Source: Alistipes sp.
GTDB taxonomy: Bacteria > Bacteroidota > Bacteroidia > Bacteroidales > Rikenellaceae
DNA: 64,000 nt
Reading direction: 5' to 3'
NCBI GenBank assembly: GCA_017536555.1
Contig: JAFXHE010000002.1
Span: 38,684 to 102,683 of the forward strand
Below the pieces are notes generated by a model that was given only the letters and a program-made list of their open reading frames with translations, did not search any database and had not been told where the DNA came from. Positions 1-8,379 of this stretch are shown here, piece after piece. The position numbers and the translations under genes were made by a program. Every line of letters begins with the position of its first letter. Positions within the stretch are counted from its first letter, which is position 1.

Positions 1-93
1 CACCTCTTAACACCCACAATACCAGCAGACAAGTGGGGTTACTCGGGTAGCAGCTTTATAGAGCTTGGAGACGTGGAGCTAACACGAAAATAG
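1..93 (+). CDS. C-terminal end of an unidentified protein (cut by window edge)
   Basis: Frame 1 is open from the first base to a TAG at 91-93 and gives 30 residues ending in GDVELTRK. The next gene starts 81 bases later on the same strand, so this may be the preceding member of the lipoprotein/radical SAM cassette. The fragment is too short to assign a family, and reading it as a gene end rests only on the open frame and the orientation of its neighbours. Confidence 0.45.
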   Translation, partial: HLLTPTIPADKWGYSGSSFIELGDVELTRK

Positions 94-174: not shown

Positions 175-588
175 ATGTGGGGAAGGATATTGACAAAGTT
201 TTTCGCACTTTTTGGCATTACACTGACTGCCGTAGCGTGCTATGGCGTGCCATACGATGAATTTGAGCCAAAGCCCATTATACCTGAAGACACATACTAC
301 GGTCACGGTATCGTTGTGGACAGCTCAAATAAGCCTATTCAGGGCATACGTGTAACCATCGGTAAGGATGAGTGCATCACCGACTCACAAGGCTGGTTTC
401 AGGTGGGTGACGAGGGCGACAATGTGATAGTGTTTAGCGACATCGACGGCGAGAAAAATGGCGGAGAGTTCAAGGAACACTCGATACGTCTGCTTGACAC
501 TGGTGACACATACTTTAAAAATGTGGTACTGTATCGCGTAGACGAGGAGCAGAACGAGGAGCAAAACGAGCCTAAAGAGGAGGCATAA
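175..588 (+). CDS. radical SAM-associated putative lipoprotein (TIGR04134-like)
   Basis: 137 aa. The N-terminus has a hydrophobic signal segment and a lipobox ending TAVAC, with the lipid-modified cysteine at about residue 22. It is followed at once by the motif CYGVPYDEF, which resembles the small lipoproteins encoded with TIGR04133 radical SAM enzymes in Bacteroidetes. Residues 40-110 look like one small beta-sandwich of the carboxypeptidase-regulatory type (GIVVDSSNKPIQGIRV, then TDSQGWF). The tail is acidic with Glu/Gln/Asn repeats. It heads a close-packed operon that ends in two radical SAM genes. From the family and context I infer a secreted, membrane-anchored protein processed or modified by that system. 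Its molecular role is unknown. Confidence 0.75.
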   Translation: MWGRILTKFFALFGITLTAVACYGVPYDEFEPKPIIPEDTYYGHGIVVDSSNKPIQGIRVTIGKDECITDSQGWFQVGDEGDNVIVFSDIDGEKNGGEFKEHSIRLLDTGDTYFKNVVLYRVDEEQNEEQNEPKEEA

Positions 589-603
589 ACAGAGAGGGGT
601 GCT

Positions 604-1155
604 ATGAGGCGCATAACGAGATACTTATCTATGCTGCTGGCGGTAGCTGTATGTGCTACGGCGTGCGAAGACTACGTGCCGAGCGATATGATTGAGGCAC
701 CTATGTCGTTGAAGCTAAAGGGCAGCTATGAGCGTTACGACAACACACTGTTTAGTGGCGAGTATGAGGTGTTCAAAAACCACCGCCACTCGCGCTTCGT
801 ACACTTCATAGATGGTGGCTTCGCGCTGCAAATATGCCGCGAGCTAAAAAACGAGAGCCTCAACCAGGTGATGGACATAGATATAGCCATCGAGCACGAG
901 CGCACACCGCTACAACTTGGCAGAGTCTACTCGCTGAAGATGCTCTCGGAGAGCCGTGCCACGATAACAACAAACAACGGCATAATCTACACAGCAACAG
1001 ATGGGTACATCATCATCGAGCAGCTGGTGGTAGACAATAGCGACTACCTGCTATCGGGCAAGTTCCGTTTTCAAGCAAAGTCCTCGGATGGCGACACAAT
1101 AGAGGTTAATGAGGGCGTGTTTGCCAACAGCCGCGCAATTGTACAACAGCGATAA
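604..1155 (+). CDS. hypothetical lipoprotein, paralogue of the next gene
   Basis: 183 aa. The signal peptide ends in a lipobox ATAC with Cys at residue 21. The mature part is predicted beta-rich. Its C-terminal half contains a block (GYIIIEQ, then YLLSGKFRFQAKSSDGDTIEV, then NEGVF) that aligns with the product of the next gene (GWILITH, then YLTSANFEFKAVNVDTDEEI, then NDGSF), so the two are tandem paralogues. The block resembles the beta-sandwich lipoproteins grouped as DUF6252-like in Bacteroidetes, an assignment I make from memory of the pattern only. The start follows the previous stop by 15 bases, consistent with one operon. Function unknown. Confidence 0.7.
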   Translation: MRRITRYLSMLLAVAVCATACEDYVPSDMIEAPMSLKLKGSYERYDNTLFSGEYEVFKNHRHSRFVHFIDGGFALQICRELKNESLNQVMDIDIAIEHERTPLQLGRVYSLKMLSESRATITTNNGIIYTATDGYIIIEQLVVDNSDYLLSGKFRFQAKSSDGDTIEVNEGVFANSRAIVQQR

Positions 1156-1166
1156 ACGAAAAACGT

Positions 1167-1712
1167 ATGTTACACCGCATAACATATATCCTGACACTGG
1201 CGATGATGCTCACACTCGGCGGCTGCTACTACCTCGACGACGTGCAGCCCACAAAGAGCTTCCCTATGAGTGTCACCATTGGCGACGAGTACTACTCAAG
1301 CGTCGGCTACCGCACCGAGGCTATGGAGTGGAACTGCGACAATGTGCTAATTACCACCGACACATCATTTATGTTGCAGGTGCGTCGCGTGATGCATAGC
1401 GACGACGGCTATTATGCCGATATGCGCATAGCCATATTCAAGCAGGAGCAGCTACAAGAGAATACCGCATACCCTCTAACAACAAGCGAGCTACAGAGCG
1501 ACGAGACAGCTTTTAAGAGCCAGATAGGCATCAACCGCAACGGCGTGTACTCGCTATACGACATCACCGAGGGGTGGATACTTATAACACACGATAATGG
1601 ATACCTCACATCGGCAAACTTCGAGTTTAAGGCGGTAAATGTCGACACTGACGAAGAGATAGAGATTAACGACGGCTCATTCAGCCGTATAGAGATGGAC
1701 AACCATATATAA
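1167..1712 (+). CDS. hypothetical lipoprotein, paralogue of the previous gene
   Basis: 181 aa. Short signal peptide with lipobox TLGGC, Cys at residue 20. The C-terminal half carries the same block as the preceding lipoprotein (GWILIT, NFEFKAVN, EIEINDGSF). The N-terminal halves are much less similar, so the duplication is old. The gene lies 11 bases after the previous stop and 19 bases before the next start, inside the radical SAM cassette. No enzyme motif is visible. It is probably an outer-membrane or periplasmic lipoprotein of unknown function. Confidence 0.7.
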   Translation: MLHRITYILTLAMMLTLGGCYYLDDVQPTKSFPMSVTIGDEYYSSVGYRTEAMEWNCDNVLITTDTSFMLQVRRVMHSDDGYYADMRIAIFKQEQLQENTAYPLTTSELQSDETAFKSQIGINRNGVYSLYDITEGWILITHDNGYLTSANFEFKAVNVDTDEEIEINDGSFSRIEMDNHI

Positions 1713-1731
1713 CAAATATAACGAGCGTAAT

Positions 1732-2280
1732 ATGAAGAAGGGGGTAATCATCATAGGTCTTGCCATAGCCTTTGTAGCAGCATCGGCTTGGGTAGTGTTG
1801 AGCGGTGGCAAGAGTGCCAAGGCTATACGCACAAAGTTTCGCCTCGGTGGAGCTATACTCACGCTGACAGGTATCGCTGCACTCTCGAGCTGTGAGACGG
1901 GCGTCACGGGCGTCACCACTTGCTACGACCCTGCACCTCCCATCGACCATATACCACCTGCTGTAAATGATGTATACGCGCTATTTCCAACGGTGATAAA
2001 CGAGGCATACGACGTGCATAATGGCGCAGTGCTGCCCTTCAGCATAACCCTCGAGAGCGAGGAGGATGTGATATTTGTTATCTCGACACCCGAGGGCGAG
2101 GAGCTACAAAGGGTGCGCTACTTGAGCGACAACAACCAGCGCAACGAGTTTAATCTGATTGTCGATGTGGGCGCGTGGCGCGGCGTGGCAGAGCTACACA
2201 TATACTTTGATTATGCCCCCGAGTTAGGTATCTTCGTGGAACATAGCCACGGCGCATATCTGCTGAATATCATCGACTAA
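1732..2280 (+). CDS. membrane/lipoprotein of radical SAM cassette with CYDPxP motif
   Basis: 182 aa. There are two hydrophobic stretches, residues 4-23 and about 38-53, separated by a basic linker rich in Lys/Arg. The second ends LSSC (Cys 54), which looks like a lipobox. Ten residues later comes TTCYDPAPP, echoing the CYGVP motif of the 175-588 product. The remaining 110 residues look like a beta domain. The gene sits 2 bases before the first radical SAM gene, the closest linkage in the cassette, which makes it a reasonable candidate substrate or partner. I do not recognise the family. The long N-terminus before the lipobox is unusual, and a downstream start is possible. Confidence 0.65.
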   Translation: MKKGVIIIGLAIAFVAASAWVVLSGGKSAKAIRTKFRLGGAILTLTGIAALSSCETGVTGVTTCYDPAPPIDHIPPAVNDVYALFPTVINEAYDVHNGAVLPFSITLESEEDVIFVISTPEGEELQRVRYLSDNNQRNEFNLIVDVGAWRGVAELHIYFDYAPELGIFVEHSHGAYLLNIID

Positions 2281-2282
2281 CT

Positions 2283-3329
2283 ATGTTTGGCTGGCGCAGA
2301 GATAAGCTGAAGCTCGGCTTCGTGGTCTTTGAGCTTACCGATGCCTGTAATCAGGCGTGTAAGTTCTGCTACAACCACTTCAAGGGCAATGGTGACGACT
2401 ACCCCATTGAGACTCCAAACTACCGTATGGCTCGCCGCACGCTCAAACGACTGCTGCGCGAGGCGGAGGTTGGGTCACTATCAATGTCGGGAGGCGAGCC
2501 AATGCTTATGCCAAAGATACACGAGCTTATCTTGCGCGCACGCTTCGCTGGATGCAGCGTCAATATGCTCACAAATGGCACGCTGCTCACGGTACACGAC
2601 ATAGCCATATTCCGCGATATTGGCGTTAATACCTTGCAGATACCTATCCTTGCCGACGACAGCGCAATACACGACTCTATGACACAGCTCTGCGGCTCGT
2701 GGCGACGTGCTACAAACAACGCCCGCCGTGTTGCCGCAATAGAGCCACGCTGGCTTACGCCTGTGCTCATATTGAGTCGTATGAATATTGAGCGCATAGA
2801 GCCAACACTCGATATGTATGCCGAGATGGGGTGCCGCCATATTATGGTCAACCGCTTCAACATTGGTGGTCAGGGCAGGCGCAATGCCGAGCAACTTATG
2901 CTCACACACGACGAGCTGCGCAATGCCTTCCGTCGTGTCGACACGAAGGCTGGCGAGCACGGTATGAGCGTGCATAGCGGCGTGTGTACACCCCACTGCG
3001 TGCTCAACCCCAAAGAGTACCGCAACATACTCTTCACACACTGCACAACAGACATTATGTCGCGCCCGCTGACCGTAAACTACCGTGGCGACGTACGCTT
3101 CTGCAACCACTCACCGCGCGTATTGGGCAACATCCACAAAGAGCCGCTCGCAAAGATTTTGGCGCGCTGTGACGAGACAGGCTACTTCGCAACAGTGCCC
3201 GAAAAGTGCAACGCGTGCCAACTATGGGAGAGCTGCAAAGGTGGCTGCCGTGCTGCCGCAGAGCAGGTGTATGGCACATTCACAAGACGCGACCCCATTA
3301 TAGATATGGAGATTAAAAGACATAAGTAA
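2283..3329 (+). CDS. radical SAM/SPASM domain protein
   Basis: 348 aa. The radical SAM [4Fe-4S] motif CX3CX2C is intact at C22, C26 and C29 (CNQACKFC). MSGGEP follows at about residue 69, the SAM-binding glycine-rich strand. The C-terminal region (about 260-330) has a SPASM-type cysteine set including CNACQLWESCKGGC, which should hold auxiliary Fe-S clusters. Such enzymes generate a 5'-deoxyadenosyl radical and typically modify peptides or proteins. The gene starts 2 bases after the preceding stop and is followed 24 bases later by a second radical SAM gene. The substrate is not evident; the neighbouring lipoproteins are the natural candidates. Confidence 0.85.
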   Translation: MFGWRRDKLKLGFVVFELTDACNQACKFCYNHFKGNGDDYPIETPNYRMARRTLKRLLREAEVGSLSMSGGEPMLMPKIHELILRARFAGCSVNMLTNGTLLTVHDIAIFRDIGVNTLQIPILADDSAIHDSMTQLCGSWRRATNNARRVAAIEPRWLTPVLILSRMNIERIEPTLDMYAEMGCRHIMVNRFNIGGQGRRNAEQLMLTHDELRNAFRRVDTKAGEHGMSVHSGVCTPHCVLNPKEYRNILFTHCTTDIMSRPLTVNYRGDVRFCNHSPRVLGNIHKEPLAKILARCDETGYFATVPEKCNACQLWESCKGGCRAAAEQVYGTFTRRDPIIDMEIKRHK

Positions 3330-3353
3330 AACATTAATACACAGATATATACT

Positions 3354-4430
3354 ATGGGAAAAAGACTCGGACTACGCCAATGGTTAATACTAAAGCTCTT
3401 CAAGAAGCTACACCACATACACCAGCAGGAGCACACGCTGAACACACTCTTCTGGGAGTGTACACTACGCTGCAACCTACAGTGTCGCCACTGCGGTAGC
3501 GACTGTAAGGTAGACACCACGTTGCAAGATATGAGCTCCAAGGACTTTTTCCGTGTTCTCGATAATGAGATAACACCCAACGTCAACCCCAACAAGGTGC
3601 TTGTAATCTTGTCGGGTGGCGAGGTGCTTGTGCGCAAAGACCTCGAGGAGATAGGCTTGAAGCTCTATCGTCGCGGCTACCCGTGGGGTATGGTCACCAA
3701 CGGTATGGCTCTCACGCGCCAACGCTTCGACTCGCTGCTGCGTGCTGGCTTGCACTCTATCACAGTGTCGCTCGATGGCTTCGAGGAGCACCACTACCAT
3801 ATACGCCAAAACAAGGAGTCGTTCAAGCGCGCTGTAGAGGCTGTTAAGATGATATCTGCCGAGAAGAGCATCGCCTCGGATGTCGTCACGTGCATAACAC
3901 CTGCGCTGCTGCAACGCATTGACGAGTTCAAGGAGTTCCTCTACTCGCTCGGCGTGCGCCAGTGGCGCATCTTCACCATCTTCCCTGTGGGACGTGCTGC
4001 CCAAGATGCCACATTGCAGCTCAACGACGAGGAGTTCACCTACCTTATGCAGTGGATGGAGGCTACGCGCAAGGAGGGACGTGTAATGGTGTCATACGGC
4101 TGCGAGGGCTTCCTCGGTGGCTACGAGCTTAAGGTGCGCACCAACCCCTTTGAGTGCTATGCGGGCATCAACATCGCGTCGATACGTGTCAATGGTGACA
4201 TCTCGGGCTGCACAAGTGTCCGCGCCAACTTCACGCAGGGCAACATCTACCGCGACAACTTCTGGGATGTGTGGCAAAACCGCTTCGAGAAGTTCCGCAA
4301 CCGCGAGTGGGCAAAGCGAGGCAAGTGTGCCGACTGCAAGATGTGGCAATACTGCGAGGGCAACGGTATGCACCTCTACGACGATGACGACAACCTGCTC
4401 GTCTGCCACTATAACCGCCTCGTGCGATAG
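3354..4430 (+). CDS. radical SAM/SPASM enzyme, rSAM/lipoprotein system (TIGR04133-like)
   Basis: 358 aa. The basic N-terminus with an HHIHQQEH stretch, followed by FWECTLRCNLQCRHCGSDC (CX3CX2C at C40, C44, C47), matches the TIGR04133 enzymes found in Bacteroidetes next to a small lipoprotein. LSGGE follows at about residue 83. The C-terminal SPASM region includes CADCKMWQYC and a final Cys near CHYNRL. Cytoplasmic, SAM- and Fe-S-dependent. It is the last gene of the cassette, and a strong hairpin terminator begins 42 bases after its stop. Family assignment is from remembered sequence pattern; the true reaction of this system is not known to me. Confidence 0.85.
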   Translation: MGKRLGLRQWLILKLFKKLHHIHQQEHTLNTLFWECTLRCNLQCRHCGSDCKVDTTLQDMSSKDFFRVLDNEITPNVNPNKVLVILSGGEVLVRKDLEEIGLKLYRRGYPWGMVTNGMALTRQRFDSLLRAGLHSITVSLDGFEEHHYHIRQNKESFKRAVEAVKMISAEKSIASDVVTCITPALLQRIDEFKEFLYSLGVRQWRIFTIFPVGRAAQDATLQLNDEEFTYLMQWMEATRKEGRVMVSYGCEGFLGGYELKVRTNPFECYAGINIASIRVNGDISGCTSVRANFTQGNIYRDNFWDVWQNRFEKFRNREWAKRGKCADCKMWQYCEGNGMHLYDDDDNLLVCHYNRLVR

Positions 4431-4471
4431 GTCGCTCGGCACCAAAGAGGGTGTCGTTTAAGCAAATTATG

Positions 4472-4513
4472 GAGTCTGTCTGACAAAATGGTGTCAGGCA
4501 GGCTCTTTTGTTG
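4472..4513 (+). terminator. rho-independent terminator of the radical SAM operon
   Basis: A 14-bp stem (4472-4485 with 4492-4505, two G-U pairs) encloses a 6-base loop and is followed by TTTTGTTG. It separates the radical SAM cassette from the next transcription unit. Confidence 0.8.
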
Positions 4514-4544
4514 AAGTTGTTACACAACTTATCGTAAAATTGTG

Positions 4545-4592: not shown

Positions 4593-4736
4593 ATGCTACA
4601 GAGAACAAAACAGGAGGAGCTTTACATCGCTCCCGAGCTTGAGGTGCTCACCGCCTTGGTTGAGCAGGGCTTCACAACCAGCTTCGATGGCTCGTCTATT
4701 GACGGTGCCGAGGAGGACAATTACGGATCATTCTAA
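4593..4736 (+). CDS. 47-aa peptide, first gene upstream of fimbrillin-like lipoprotein
   Basis: ATG at 4593, TAA at 4734-4736. The product starts MLQRTKQEE, continues with YIAPELEVL and VEQGF, and ends in a Gly/Asp/Ser-rich tail finishing NYGSF. It has no signal peptide. A second gene of the same design lies at 44444-44599 (YISPCLDVV, VECGF, Gly/Asp-rich tail ending GEF), also directly before a fimbrillin-type lipoprotein. Shared architecture and position argue that this is a real gene. Short proteins with a Y-x-x-P-x-x-E/D-V motif are familiar as unannotated Bacteroidetes peptides, but I know of no function. It is the first gene after the promoter and 13 bases before the lipoprotein start. 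Confidence 0.65.
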   Translation: MLQRTKQEELYIAPELEVLTALVEQGFTTSFDGSSIDGAEEDNYGSF

Positions 4737-4749
4737 AACTATTGCAACG

Positions 4750-7548
4750 ATGAAGAGATTTTTTAGCTTAATGCTTGTTGCAGTAGCTGCAATGGCATTT
4801 GTAGGTTGTCAGAACGACACCGACGACCTCAACACAACCGCTCGCAAGAGCATTATCGAGTTCACCGCCAGCTTCGACGAGACACGCTCGGCGTTTGGCG
4901 ACAGCTACAAGGATGGCGACAACACCATCTATCCCTCAACTTGGAGCGGCACGGAGACTGTTTATCTAAAACTCAATGAGGCTGAACTTGTGTCAGCTCA
5001 CATTGAAACTGCTGGCGCAACTGCCACCTTTAAGGCAGAGATTATTGATGACAAGACCGAAACAGGCAACATCTACGCCTTCTCTCCTGTGGGTAAGTAT
5101 GATAAACAGAAGGGTATCATTGTTGGTGGCTTCACCAGTTTAAATGCCAAATATAACGATATGTATGTCGTGATTCCCGCGGAGCAGTACCCCTCAACAA
5201 CATCTGTTGACGAGACAGTGCATCTTCTTGCTGCTACACACAGCTACAGCAATGGTGTTCCCACAGCTGTAAACCTCACATTCAAGCCTGTGGCTGCATT
5301 TGGTAAGATGACTATCACAGACTTTGCAGAGGCTATCGAGAAGGTTGAGGTTATCGCTTCTGAGGCTCTTGCTGGCGATAGCTGCTGGTACTACTACGAA
5401 ACGGGGGAGTTTGACAACGCTAATGAGAAGACAATTGCTGTAATCAACCCCGCCGATGATAACAAAACCTTTTGGTTTGGTTGCGCTCCTGCTGACCTGT
5501 CGGAGGGCACACTCGCTGTTAAGGTATATGCCGAATCTGGCACATACACCAAGGAGCTGAATATCGCAGGCAAGAACTTCAAGTTCACCAGCGGTCGCGT
5601 ATCAAAGTTCAGCGTATCTATGGAGGGCGTTGAGAAGGACGGCACACTGCCCACAGTAATCGAGGATGGTCACTATGTTATCGCTGGTTATGTTGACGGC
5701 AAGTACTATGCTCTGCCCAACGCAAATAAGTCTACAGCAGGTACTATTGCCCATTCAGAGATTACCGTAACTGATGGCAAGGTAGCTACGGATGATGCCG
5801 TGGGCTATGTATGGACAATTGCTGCTGCAGAGGGTGGCTACACCTTCTATAATGGTGCAGAGTATTTGACAGCGACACAGGTAAGTGGTGCAAACTTGAA
5901 GACACAGGCAGAAGCCGCTGTATGGGCTCTTGACACAGAGAATACCTCAAAGGGCTATATGTTTATCTCTCCCGTAGCAGATAACCGTTTCTTGTCTTGT
6001 CGTATGGGAACAACAAAGAAGTTTGGTGCTTATGCTAAAACTAACTATACAGGTGATGAGTACTACGGTGTTCAGCTTATTCCTATTGATGGTGTTGTAA
6101 AGACTACGCTCGATAAGCCTGTGTTGACAACTACTGTTGAGGGTAACTCAATTACTGTTAACTGGACAGCTATTGAGGGTGCAGAGAGCTACACCGTAAC
6201 TCTTGATGAGGGCACTCCCGAGACTATCACGGAAACAACCAAGACCTTCAATGGCTTGGAGTACTCTACACAGTACACTATTACCGTTGTTGCCAACCCC
6301 GAGGACGAGGCTGTGAACACAGCATCTACCGCATCAACCTCTGCAACAACAGCAGCTGATCCCGATGCAGTAGCTACAATCAAGGATGGCAAATATGCAA
6401 TTATTGCCGTAAACGCTGCCGGAGATGAATACTCTGCTATGACAACCGCAGAGACCTCGGGCTCAACAGCGCGTATTGCATCACAGGTTGTGACATACGA
6501 TGGTGAAGCTACAACATTTACTGCTCCCAATAATACCTACGTATGGAATATCAAGAGCGTCGATGGTGGTTATGTAATCTATACCAATGATAACGAGTAT
6601 GTTAATTGGCAGGGAGGAGATACCAATGGTGCTAATTTGAAAGGCACAGCAGATAGCAAGGTTACTATATCACAGGTAGAGGGTACGAATCAGTATAATA
6701 TCCAGTGGGCTGGCAATTCTTCACGATACCTTGCAAAAAACAGCTCTAATGCTTACTTTGCATTCTATAAGAGCGGTCAGCGACAAGATCTCTTTATCGT
6801 TCCTGTGGAGGTAGGTGTGATTGAGCCTCAACAGCTTGCTGCGCCTACAATTCACAAACCCGAGGTCACTTCAAACAGCATTACTGTAAGCTGGGATGAT
6901 GTTGCAAATGCTACTGGTTACGCTGTATCTATTGATGGTGGCGAGGCAACTGTTGTAAATACAACAAATCACACCTTTAACGGTCTTACACCCAAGACAA
7001 CATACACTATCTCGGTTGTAGCAAAGGGCGATGACACCTATTATACCGACTCTAATGCAGCAACTGTAGAAGCGACAACTGCAGAAGCTCCTGCTGCAAG
7101 TGGTGCTGTATATACAAAGGTAACATCTGCTCCTGCAGATTGGAGTGGCACATATTTGATTGTTTGGGATTCAGGGGCACACGCAACCATATCTTCAAAA
7201 GACCTTGCTAAAACTGCTGACGTGACTATTTCTAACGACCAAATTCAATCTAATGTAGATGTAGATAACGCTGCTGTAACTATCGCTAAAAACGGCGATT
7301 ACTACTCTTTAATGTTGCCTGATGGAAAATACCTGTCAATGAACGCTAACGGCAATCAAGTGAACAGTGTAAGTAGCGCATATAACCTCACATTAGTATA
7401 CACGGATGCTGGCGTAAAGATTATGGGAAAAGATACAGCGGGCAATGATCGAATTCTGGTAAAGAATGGCAATTACTATCGCGGATACAAAGTGTCTAAT
7501 GCATCATCTTATATATTGCCAACTCTTTACAAGAAGAGCGGAAATTGA
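4750..7548 (+). CDS. fimbrillin-like/FN3 multidomain surface lipoprotein
   Basis: 932 aa from the ATG at 4750, chosen because it gives a proper lipoprotein signal (MKRFFSLML, lipobox FVGC, Cys 20); the open frame extends upstream but overlaps the peptide gene. Residues about 30-290 resemble the Mfa-like/fimbrillin fold (TARKSIIEFTASF, ETRSAF). They are followed by three copies of a beta-domain starting like IEDGHYVIAGY or IKDGKYAIIAV (the third divergent, from YTKVTSAPADW). These are separated by two fibronectin type III domains (about 460-545 and 700-785; ITVNW and ITVSW, then TYTISVVAK). It probably acts as an outer-surface adhesin or binding protein. The stop is a TGA, after which the same frame stays open for 276 codons encoding a linker and a NUC nuclease domain (next entry). 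Confidence 0.85.
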   Translation: MKRFFSLMLVAVAAMAFVGCQNDTDDLNTTARKSIIEFTASFDETRSAFGDSYKDGDNTIYPSTWSGTETVYLKLNEAELVSAHIETAGATATFKAEIIDDKTETGNIYAFSPVGKYDKQKGIIVGGFTSLNAKYNDMYVVIPAEQYPSTTSVDETVHLLAATHSYSNGVPTAVNLTFKPVAAFGKMTITDFAEAIEKVEVIASEALAGDSCWYYYETGEFDNANEKTIAVINPADDNKTFWFGCAPADLSEGTLAVKVYAESGTYTKELNIAGKNFKFTSGRVSKFSVSMEGVEKDGTLPTVIEDGHYVIAGYVDGKYYALPNANKSTAGTIAHSEITVTDGKVATDDAVGYVWTIAAAEGGYTFYNGAEYLTATQVSGANLKTQAEAAVWALDTENTSKGYMFISPVADNRFLSCRMGTTKKFGAYAKTNYTGDEYYGVQLIPIDGVVKTTLDKPVLTTTVEGNSITVNWTAIEGAESYTVTLDEGTPETITETTKTFNGLEYSTQYTITVVANPEDEAVNTASTASTSATTAADPDAVATIKDGKYAIIAVNAAGDEYSAMTTAETSGSTARIASQVVTYDGEATTFTAPNNTYVWNIKSVDGGYVIYTNDNEYVNWQGGDTNGANLKGTADSKVTISQVEGTNQYNIQWAGNSSRYLAKNSSNAYFAFYKSGQRQDLFIVPVEVGVIEPQQLAAPTIHKPEVTSNSITVSWDDVANATGYAVSIDGGEATVVNTTNHTFNGLTPKTTYTISVVAKGDDTYYTDSNAATVEATTAEAPAASGAVYTKVTSAPADWSGTYLIVWDSGAHATISSKDLAKTADVTISNDQIQSNVDVDNAAVTIAKNGDYYSLMLPDGKYLSMNANGNQVNSVSSAYNLTLVYTDAGVKIMGKDTAGNDRILVKNGNYYRGYKVSNASSYILPTLYKKSGN

Positions 7549-8379
7549 GAGTCGGGTGACGATACGGGGGGCGAAGAGCCTCCCGTCGTAGACCCTACCC
7601 CGGGAACAGAAGGATCTGCCTCGAAGTCGTGGTTAGAGCTGCCTGCAACACGCAGTGACAATACTAATGCCATAGAGTGTACCGTTGAGTATGGTGGCGA
7701 GCGCAACTACACCATATACTACGACAAGTCAACATACACATCGCTCTGGACAGCATACCCGCTTGAAGCAAAACATATGGGCAGTCTCGATCGTCCTAAA
7801 AACTGGAGTGCCAACCCCAATATCTCCACGAGCGATCAGGTAAACTTAAGTAGCTCGTACTCGGGTAGCACATACAGCCGAGGACACCTCATACCCAATG
7901 CCTCGCGCAATGGCATAAAGGAAATGCAGTTGCAGACATTCTACTACACCAACTCTGTACCACAGGTGCAGACACGTTTCAACGATGGCGTATGGAACAA
8001 CCTTGAGCAGGCTGTACAGTCGATAGCAAAGGGCGAAACAGTGTATGTCACAACAGGTGTTGCATTCAGCAAGGTGGGCGAGAGCAAGAGTGTATCATAC
8101 ATCCAGTCGAGTAGCGACACCAAGAGTGTGCCTATACCAAACTACTTCTACAAGGTGGTTTTAAGGGTTAAGACAAATAGCTCGGGCGAGGTAACATCGG
8201 CATCAACAATTGCCTTTTGGTTTGAAAACAAGGAGTACACAGACAAGTACTACAACCACACGACAACAGTCGACCAAGTAGAGGCGTGGACAGGCTTCGA
8301 CTTCTTTGTAAATCTGCCCGACAGCGTAGAGACGGCTGCCGAGAAGAACAGCAACTGGACAACGTTTCAAAACTTTTAA
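7549..8379 (+). pseudogene. DNA/RNA non-specific endonuclease (NUC) domain, in frame after a TGA
   Basis: The frame of the preceding lipoprotein continues without another stop from 7549 to 8379. It encodes a linker (ESGDDTGGEEPPVVDPTPG) and then the conserved N-terminal strand of Bacteroidetes NUC proteins (WLELPA near 7630, NYTIYYD, TAYPLE). Next come the nuclease core SRGHLIPNAS (DRGH motif with Ser for Asp; the His is the general base) and TNSVPQVQTRFNDGVWNNLE, where the Asn is the usual metal ligand. The only later ATG (7777) would remove the first strands of the domain and give no signal peptide. I therefore read it as the severed C-terminus of one secreted protein, produced only by readthrough, reinitiation, or in relatives lacking the TGA. 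A sequencing error at 7546 is also possible. Confidence 0.7.

Follow-up and report, generated by a model that had tools for sequence, protein, structure and literature searches.

Why should one operon of an Alistipes genome carry two radical S-adenosylmethionine (SAM) enzymes, each with a SPASM domain, among a series of small lipoproteins? The question is raised by a 64,000-nucleotide stretch of Alistipes sp. assembly GCA_017536555.1 (contig JAFXHE010000002.1, positions 38,684 to 102,683; G000:C11:38684-102683 in our numbering), which we call the window and which belongs to a genome of 1.63 Mb in 21 contigs that is 79% complete. Near its start lie six genes, here called A to F, between positions 175 and 4430. 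A sequence-only reading of the window had taken them for the known TIGR04133/TIGR04134 system, one radical SAM enzyme with one lipoprotein, to which a second enzyme and further envelope proteins had been added. We think it likely that the operon holds two radical SAM/lipoprotein modification systems: in system 1, the enzyme encoded by gene F would act on lipoproteins with a YGxP motif, namely the product of gene A and those of genes upstream of it, and in system 2, enzyme E would modify a Cys-Tyr (CY) site in the precursor of lipoprotein D (pre-D).

The second enzyme was rightly recognized as such. Gene E (2283..3329, + strand) encodes a 348-aa radical SAM/SPASM protein, the proposed maturase of D, in which both PF04055 (64.2 bits, cut-off 29.5) and PF13186 (26.4 bits, cut-off 21.5) pass. 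With 44.7 bits against a cut-off of 425, E is not a TIGR04133 member, nor does it exceed the cut-off of any of the 25 best-scoring NCBIfam families (of 80 matched), which include those of the known SPASM maturases (PqqE, GeoRSP, mycofactocin, SkfB, DynA, PapB and others); its best score, for PqqE (TIGR02109), is 94.8 bits against 381.35. The family search suggested by the sequence-only reading for both enzymes has thus placed F, which is over the TIGR04133 cut-off, and not E. For the other 56 proteins of our E alignment, the lowest of the best NCBIfam E-values is 1.2e-32. That alignment of 57 rows (a locus set thinned by identity and length to 54, plus the window protein, L031 and L032) keeps C22, C26, C29, spaced as CxxxCxxC, and eight further cysteines invariant; C309, C312, C318 and C322 are invariant and fit the CX2CX5CX3C pattern of SPASM cysteines. 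The nearest relatives of the window protein are from Alistipes of ruminant gut samples.

E is paired with D. Among 101 related genomes, E occurs in 12, with D directly upstream in all of them, and profile searches place E (E-value ≤1e-40) and D (≤1e-6) in the same 12 genomes and neither of them in the remaining 89. When the 12 E proteins were used as queries against 84,980 species, each represented by a single genome, 147 relatives were found and 80 loci were fetched, from genomes named Alistipes, Tidjanibacter, Rikenellaceae, Paludibacter, Cryptobacteroides, Bacteroidales, Bacteroidia or Bacteroidetes; the two scans overlap in part, since several contigs of G011-G052 recur among L038-L054 and L082. 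The D profile matches in 78 of these 80 loci, and in the other two (L059 and L086) E stands at the very start of its contig. D lies upstream of E in 77 loci and downstream in one (L090), two D genes are present in L066, L098 and L105, and the D and E reading frames often overlap by a few bases. An order-level scan of 393 genomes found E in 20 (≤1e-60) and D in 14 (≤1e-6), with 13 in common. Seven of the 20 E genomes were missed by the D profile (G517, G548, G581, G646, G670, G750 and G756), and four of these have divergent CY proteins. On reading all 20, we found a CY protein upstream of E in 17 of the 18 that could be tested; G756 has CH, and the loci of G581 and G750 run into a contig end. 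The sequence-only reading had named enzymes without any CY-x-P lipoprotein as the finding that would speak against it; for E such loci did not appear, the CH of G756 aside, while for TIGR04133 CY-x-P is not the rule.

Three further observations belong to these scans. A phylum-level scan of 395 genomes (≤1e-50) passed three, namely the window genome, G260 and G136. The G260 locus (L036, G260:C78, flipped, 5970-7714) shows a CY protein (CYAPAEP) followed by an E gene that lacks the usual N-terminal CxxxCxxC part and looks interrupted. The G136 candidate (205.8 bits) was judged another enzyme, as we saw no CY leader protein in front of it and a further radical SAM gene behind it. In the order-level scan, the D of G523 lies close to the end of a contig, and that genome gave no E.

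The same surveys bear on what D might be to E. D could be an accessory or chaperone-like partner, as PqqD is to PqqE, or a membrane anchor, with the true substrate encoded elsewhere; the D leader would suit an anchor, and in graspetide loci a small protein of the LPL family, encoded immediately before the SPASM enzyme, has been interpreted as an accessory (PMC8939145). Such a role sits poorly with the number and form of the D genes. Up to four of them stand in tandem for one E (four in G618, three each in G646, G670 and G706), and others lie away from E, as in G086:C102 and G599:C13, where E is on another contig of the same genome; in G086 the profile picks up the D of C102 and not the D next to E, which we recognized by eye in L031. 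Moreover, some D-like proteins are reduced to the leader, CY and a short tail, and CY is doubled in 25 of 82 D proteins. We therefore regard an accessory or anchoring role as unlikely, and return to D as the substrate.

If D is a substrate, which part of it would E act upon? Gene D (1732..2280, + strand) encodes a 182-aa CY lipoprotein that matches no NCBIfam and no Pfam family at an E-value of 1 or below and does not match TIGR04134; when 71 D proteins were compared with NCBIfam (E-value ≤0.01), four other families were weakly matched, each by one or two members. In our alignment of 71 D proteins (a locus set thinned by identity and length to 70, plus the window protein; L053_1683 was dropped), F14, W20, A31, K35, G39, C64, Y65 and G151 are invariant. 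The mean majority share per position is 0.63 for residues 1-23, 0.75 for 24-40, 0.56 for 41-54 and 0.41 for 55-62, rises to 0.81 for residues 63-67 (TCYDP), and is 0.33 for 68-182. The conserved leader, residues 1-40 (1732..1851, +), comprises a hydrophobic segment and a basic loop ending in RLGG, with a net charge of +3 to +6. It is followed by a lipobox-like Cys54 (1891..1893, +) and, ten residues later, by CYDPAP (1921..1938, +), which begins at Cys64 and is the proposed modification site. Across the family, 77 of 81 D proteins have a lipobox-like Cys 3-19 residues (median 9) ahead of CY, and CY is kept in 81 of 82. The 106 CY motifs have D or E next in 102 and then P in 78, with T, S or M in front in 96. 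By comparison, CY falls at residues 35-130 in 20 of 543 other ORFs of at least 120 aa from the same loci, a set that surely includes spurious ORFs; set against 81 of 82, this argues that the CY of D is more than chance. The proposal that CYDPAP is a likely enzyme site has thus gained from the comparison, and CY is probably where E makes its chemical change, to judge from sequence conservation.

The rest of D is far less constant. Its C-terminal part is divergent, with weak Ig-like Pfam matches in some of ten proteins scanned, and the one TonB-like D scanned (L121:1723-2427) ends in a TonB_C domain (PF03544, 58.9 bits, cut-off 24.6). TonB-like C-terminal parts were also seen by eye in D-like proteins of L121, L122, L118 and L119, and L128:812-2817 (G599:C13) holds six CY ORFs of 68-98 aa without a passenger in a row with one full-length D. 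A constant leader, a constant and sometimes doubled motif and an exchangeable passenger together form the pattern of leader-directed modification, and D and E share with ribosomally synthesized and post-translationally modified peptide (RiPP) systems a precursor-like neighbour gene, a conserved leader, a repeated motif and a variable remainder.

A general pathway for system 2 can be proposed on this basis, in which E acting on D, the site, the topology and the order of steps are what we infer from the conserved parts of the two proteins. Radical SAM enzymes operate in the cytoplasm, so CY would need to be changed before export. Consider, then, a newly made pre-D. Its leader, consisting of a hydrophobic segment, a basic loop with K-x-[RK]-[LI]-G-G and a second hydrophobic segment, would be bound by E at the membrane's inner face. 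Before the motif has left the cytoplasm, E would make a radical-based change at Cys-Tyr, usually within [TSM]-C-Y-[DE]-P, once or twice per substrate. Export of D would follow, with lipidation on the Cys that precedes the motif by a median of 9 residues and cleavage at that Cys; in the lipoprotein pathway of Lgt and LspA, the lipobox would put the CY site beside the lipid. The leader would be lost on cleavage, the changed site would end up adjoining the lipid anchor, and the C-terminal domain of D would be a variable passenger. SPASM enzymes are known to form thioether and carbon-carbon links at residues that include Cys and Tyr, and by analogy our guess is that the product might be a thioether or another Cys/Tyr-centred link. 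Thioether links by SPASM enzymes are also described in PMC10352776.

E might also modify D outside CY, needing the leader only, with CY serving lipidation, metal binding or a disulfide. The short distance between CY and the lipid Cys would suit this, as would G756, which keeps the Cys while Tyr is replaced by His, as for a metal or disulfide site. CY persists, however, in D proteins with no preceding Cys (L098_4935, L105_5468, L031 and L032a), and no part of D is better conserved than CY and the loop. A site outside CY consequently appears improbable to us, and we keep to CY as the probable target.

Several exceptions nonetheless weigh against our proposal for E and D. In G756, five tandem ORFs of 75-81 aa with SCH or TCH in place of CY lie directly before E (L124:1403-2562), and the presence of CH implies that Tyr is not strictly required. 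This Tyr-to-His exchange goes with N193S and A324G in E, at two positions that are otherwise constant in 72 rows; that these are its counterpart is only a hint, resting on one event on a long branch. The D-like protein L053_1683 has neither CY nor leader, the D-profile match in G051:C22 covers the C-terminal part only, and 4 of 81 D proteins have no lipobox-like Cys by pattern, as is also the case by eye for L031 and L032a. In addition, adjacent genes that work together should be inherited together in any case, whether or not they encode an enzyme and its substrate.

How, then, does system 2 stand to the known system beside it? Gene F (3354..4430, + strand; 358 aa) is a radical SAM/SPASM enzyme and a member of TIGR04133 (rSAM_w_lipo), with 567.2 bits against a cut-off of 425 and with PF04055 and PF13186 above their Pfam cut-offs too; that the TIGR04133 system is present, together with extra parts, was well seen from the letters. 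Gene A (175..588, + strand) encodes a 137-aa lipoprotein of TIGR04134 (lipo_with_rSAM) type: it scores 28.2 bits, under the cut-off of 39.8, and is related by BLAST to upstream TIGR04134 members (E-values 1.4e-7 and 5.5e-7). These members are found in the genome sequence, where four further lipoprotein genes immediately precede gene A at window positions of about -2003 to 93 and encode, in order, 171, 170, 195 and 138 aa. Two of the four pass the TIGR04134 cut-off, at 76.7 and 74.6 bits. The fourth (L008:9677-10093, where a window position is the L008 position minus 10000) starts about 323 bases before the window and leaves its 3' end at 1..93 (+), and BLAST similarity to the other upstream lipoproteins relates its 138-aa product to the TIGR04134 proteins. 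The genome holds a second TIGR04133 gene as well (contig C16, L009 8435-9865, - strand), preceded by a gene for a 112-aa lipoprotein with MYGVP.

The partner motif of system 1 was counted in 30 TIGR04133 loci, drawn from 80 TIGR04133 places found in the relatives. A pattern search found a Y[GA]x(1-2)P protein upstream of the TIGR04133 gene in 21 of the 30, and MYGV was seen by eye in four more (L139, L144, L151 and L167); among the remaining five, L153 and L165 are apparently cut by the contig start, and L162, L163 and L166 belong to the D-E-F loci, with their lipoprotein genes outside the flank. In the 28 YGxP proteins counted in these loci, the residue before Tyr is M in 19, E in eight and A in one, and never Cys. 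In a set of 28 lipoproteins from D-E-F loci and the window's own operon, YG is preceded by E in 11, C in seven, A in three, M in two and G in one, and four have no motif. The sequence-only reading had joined CYGVP of gene A (238..252, +) and CYDPAP of gene D into one motif lying just after a lipobox-like Cys. The variable residue before the YGxP Tyr and the D alignments lead us to reject this: CYGVP is the YGxP form of system 1, and CYDPAP the CY-D/E-P motif of the D family. Its placement holds for gene D, where CYDPAP follows Cys54, but not for gene A, where the Cys of CYGVP is the lipobox Cys itself, with YGxP after it.

From the shared motif it would be a short step to a joint action of E and F on all the operon lipoproteins. 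The two enzymes do occur together, a TIGR04133-like gene being present in 17 of the 80 E loci, all in Alistipes and 16 of them with TIGR04134-like genes, and both the CYGVP at the lipobox of gene A and the seven lipoproteins in 28 with Cys before YG point in that direction. Yet TIGR04133 occurs in 58 of the 101 relatives, all 12 E genomes among them, which leaves 46 with TIGR04133 and without E, and in 63 of the 80 E loci no TIGR04133 lies in the fetched flank, an absence that is only local since the flanks are at most 6 kb, often shorter, with some loci cut short. Together with the absence of Cys before Tyr from the 28 counted YGxP proteins, these figures make joint action a very improbable explanation. 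E and D, for their part, also form a two-gene module without TIGR04133 nearby, and E, which has a partner of its own, does not bear out its description as something added to the TIGR04133 pair. An E tree of 73 rows gathers the 12 rows linked to TIGR04133 in one 13-row clade (support 97/89), with L049 as the other member; the linkage needs two changes on this tree, and one joining of systems 1 and 2 plus one loss might account for it. Within the two-system arrangement, F would do on the YGxP lipoproteins the equivalent of what E would do on D.

The operon that unites the two systems is compact. All six ORFs are on the + strand, separated by 15, 11, 19, 2 and 24 bases, and they are followed by an intrinsic terminator (4471..4506, +), a 15-pair stem-loop and then TTTGTTG; for the surrounding stretch, 4466-4516, the folding energy is -24.6 kcal/mol (z -6.4). 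The close packing and single terminator described from the letters are therefore confirmed, as are the six genes of the cassette proposed for 175..4430, but its start is not at 175: the six genes make up the 3' end of a run of ten that begins with the four upstream lipoprotein genes and is bounded by ispG (named by eye) on the opposite strand. Proteins A to D each have, by eye, a lipobox-like Cys near the N-terminus. Between genes A and D lie gene B (604..1155, +), for a 183-aa lipoprotein of DUF6252 (PF19765, 33.5 bits, cut-off 27.2), and gene C (1167..1712, +), for a 181-aa DUF6252-like lipoprotein that stays below that cut-off (20.1 bits) and is related to B by BLAST (E-value 8e-5). The two DUF6252-type lipoproteins (604-1712) have neither CY-D/E-P nor YGxP, and nine of the 80 E loci that were fetched have a DUF6252-type gene, each of the nine with TIGR04133. 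Counts of sigma-70 and terminator patterns were at shuffle level (8 against 8.2 and 6 against 6.0) and were not used; only the 4471-4506 stem-loop stands out. A Bacteroidetes-type promoter pattern gave 24 matches in L008 against 16.2 expected, with 5 of 200 shuffles as high, which is not decisive. A TAATTTTG box before the first gene of the operon (L008, about 7879-7886) was seen by eye only and is not used as evidence. Between the terminator and the next lipoprotein gene, a 47-aa ORF (MLQRTKQEELYIAPELEV...GSF; 4593-4736, +) is the sole ORF of the window that fitted the pattern used.

Among known systems, TIGR04133/TIGR04134 is built on the same plan as D and E, with one SPASM enzyme and one or more small lipoproteins that have in common a signal region and a Tyr motif near the lipid Cys; D differs in its longer leader with a basic loop and in a motif that is CY-[DE]-P instead of YGxP. 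PqqE (TIGR02109, PDB 6c8v) and SkfB (PDB 6efn), the best relatives of solved structure by the E profile (69.5 and 71 bits), have a radical SAM core and SPASM like E. Their partners PqqA and SkfA are small free peptides, whereas the partner of E is a membrane lipoprotein, and E remains, as noted, well under the PqqE cut-off. GeoRSP (TIGR04303) is matched by all 57 E proteins at an E-value of 1e-10 or below, with 88.9 bits for the window E against a cut-off of 400. Radical SAM RiPP clusters of Bacteroidales come from the same order and join radical SAM/SPASM enzymes to short precursors, with a PCAT peptidase transporter in all but two of nine selected clusters; the text does not use 'lipoprotein', 'signal peptide' or 'Alistipes' (PMC10352776). 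In openly licensed literature we found no paper naming TIGR04133 or TIGR04134 and, judging by titles and the first lines of abstracts, none that deals with the D-E pair or a similar lipoprotein-directed SPASM pair. D and E are thus apparently a second, undescribed pair beside the known TIGR04133 set.

With this pair, the plan of the TIGR04133 system, on which little has been written, is met a second time. Small peptides are the usual setting of SPASM enzymes, whereas E goes with membrane-anchored proteins in which a site of two residues is fixed and the passenger varies. It is possible, although we hold the idea with some reserve, that D and E represent an undescribed class of radical-SAM-modified lipoproteins, scattered through Bacteroidales and slightly beyond, in which a leader that spans the membrane guides a SPASM enzyme to Cys-Tyr sites that come to lie beside the lipid anchor, yielding a new Cys/Tyr-derived link on envelope proteins whose interchangeable passengers include TonB C-terminal domains. 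If the modification is real, it would add to gut and rumen bacteria a protein modification placed beside the lipid anchor, and the pair would offer a simple two-gene system for experiments.

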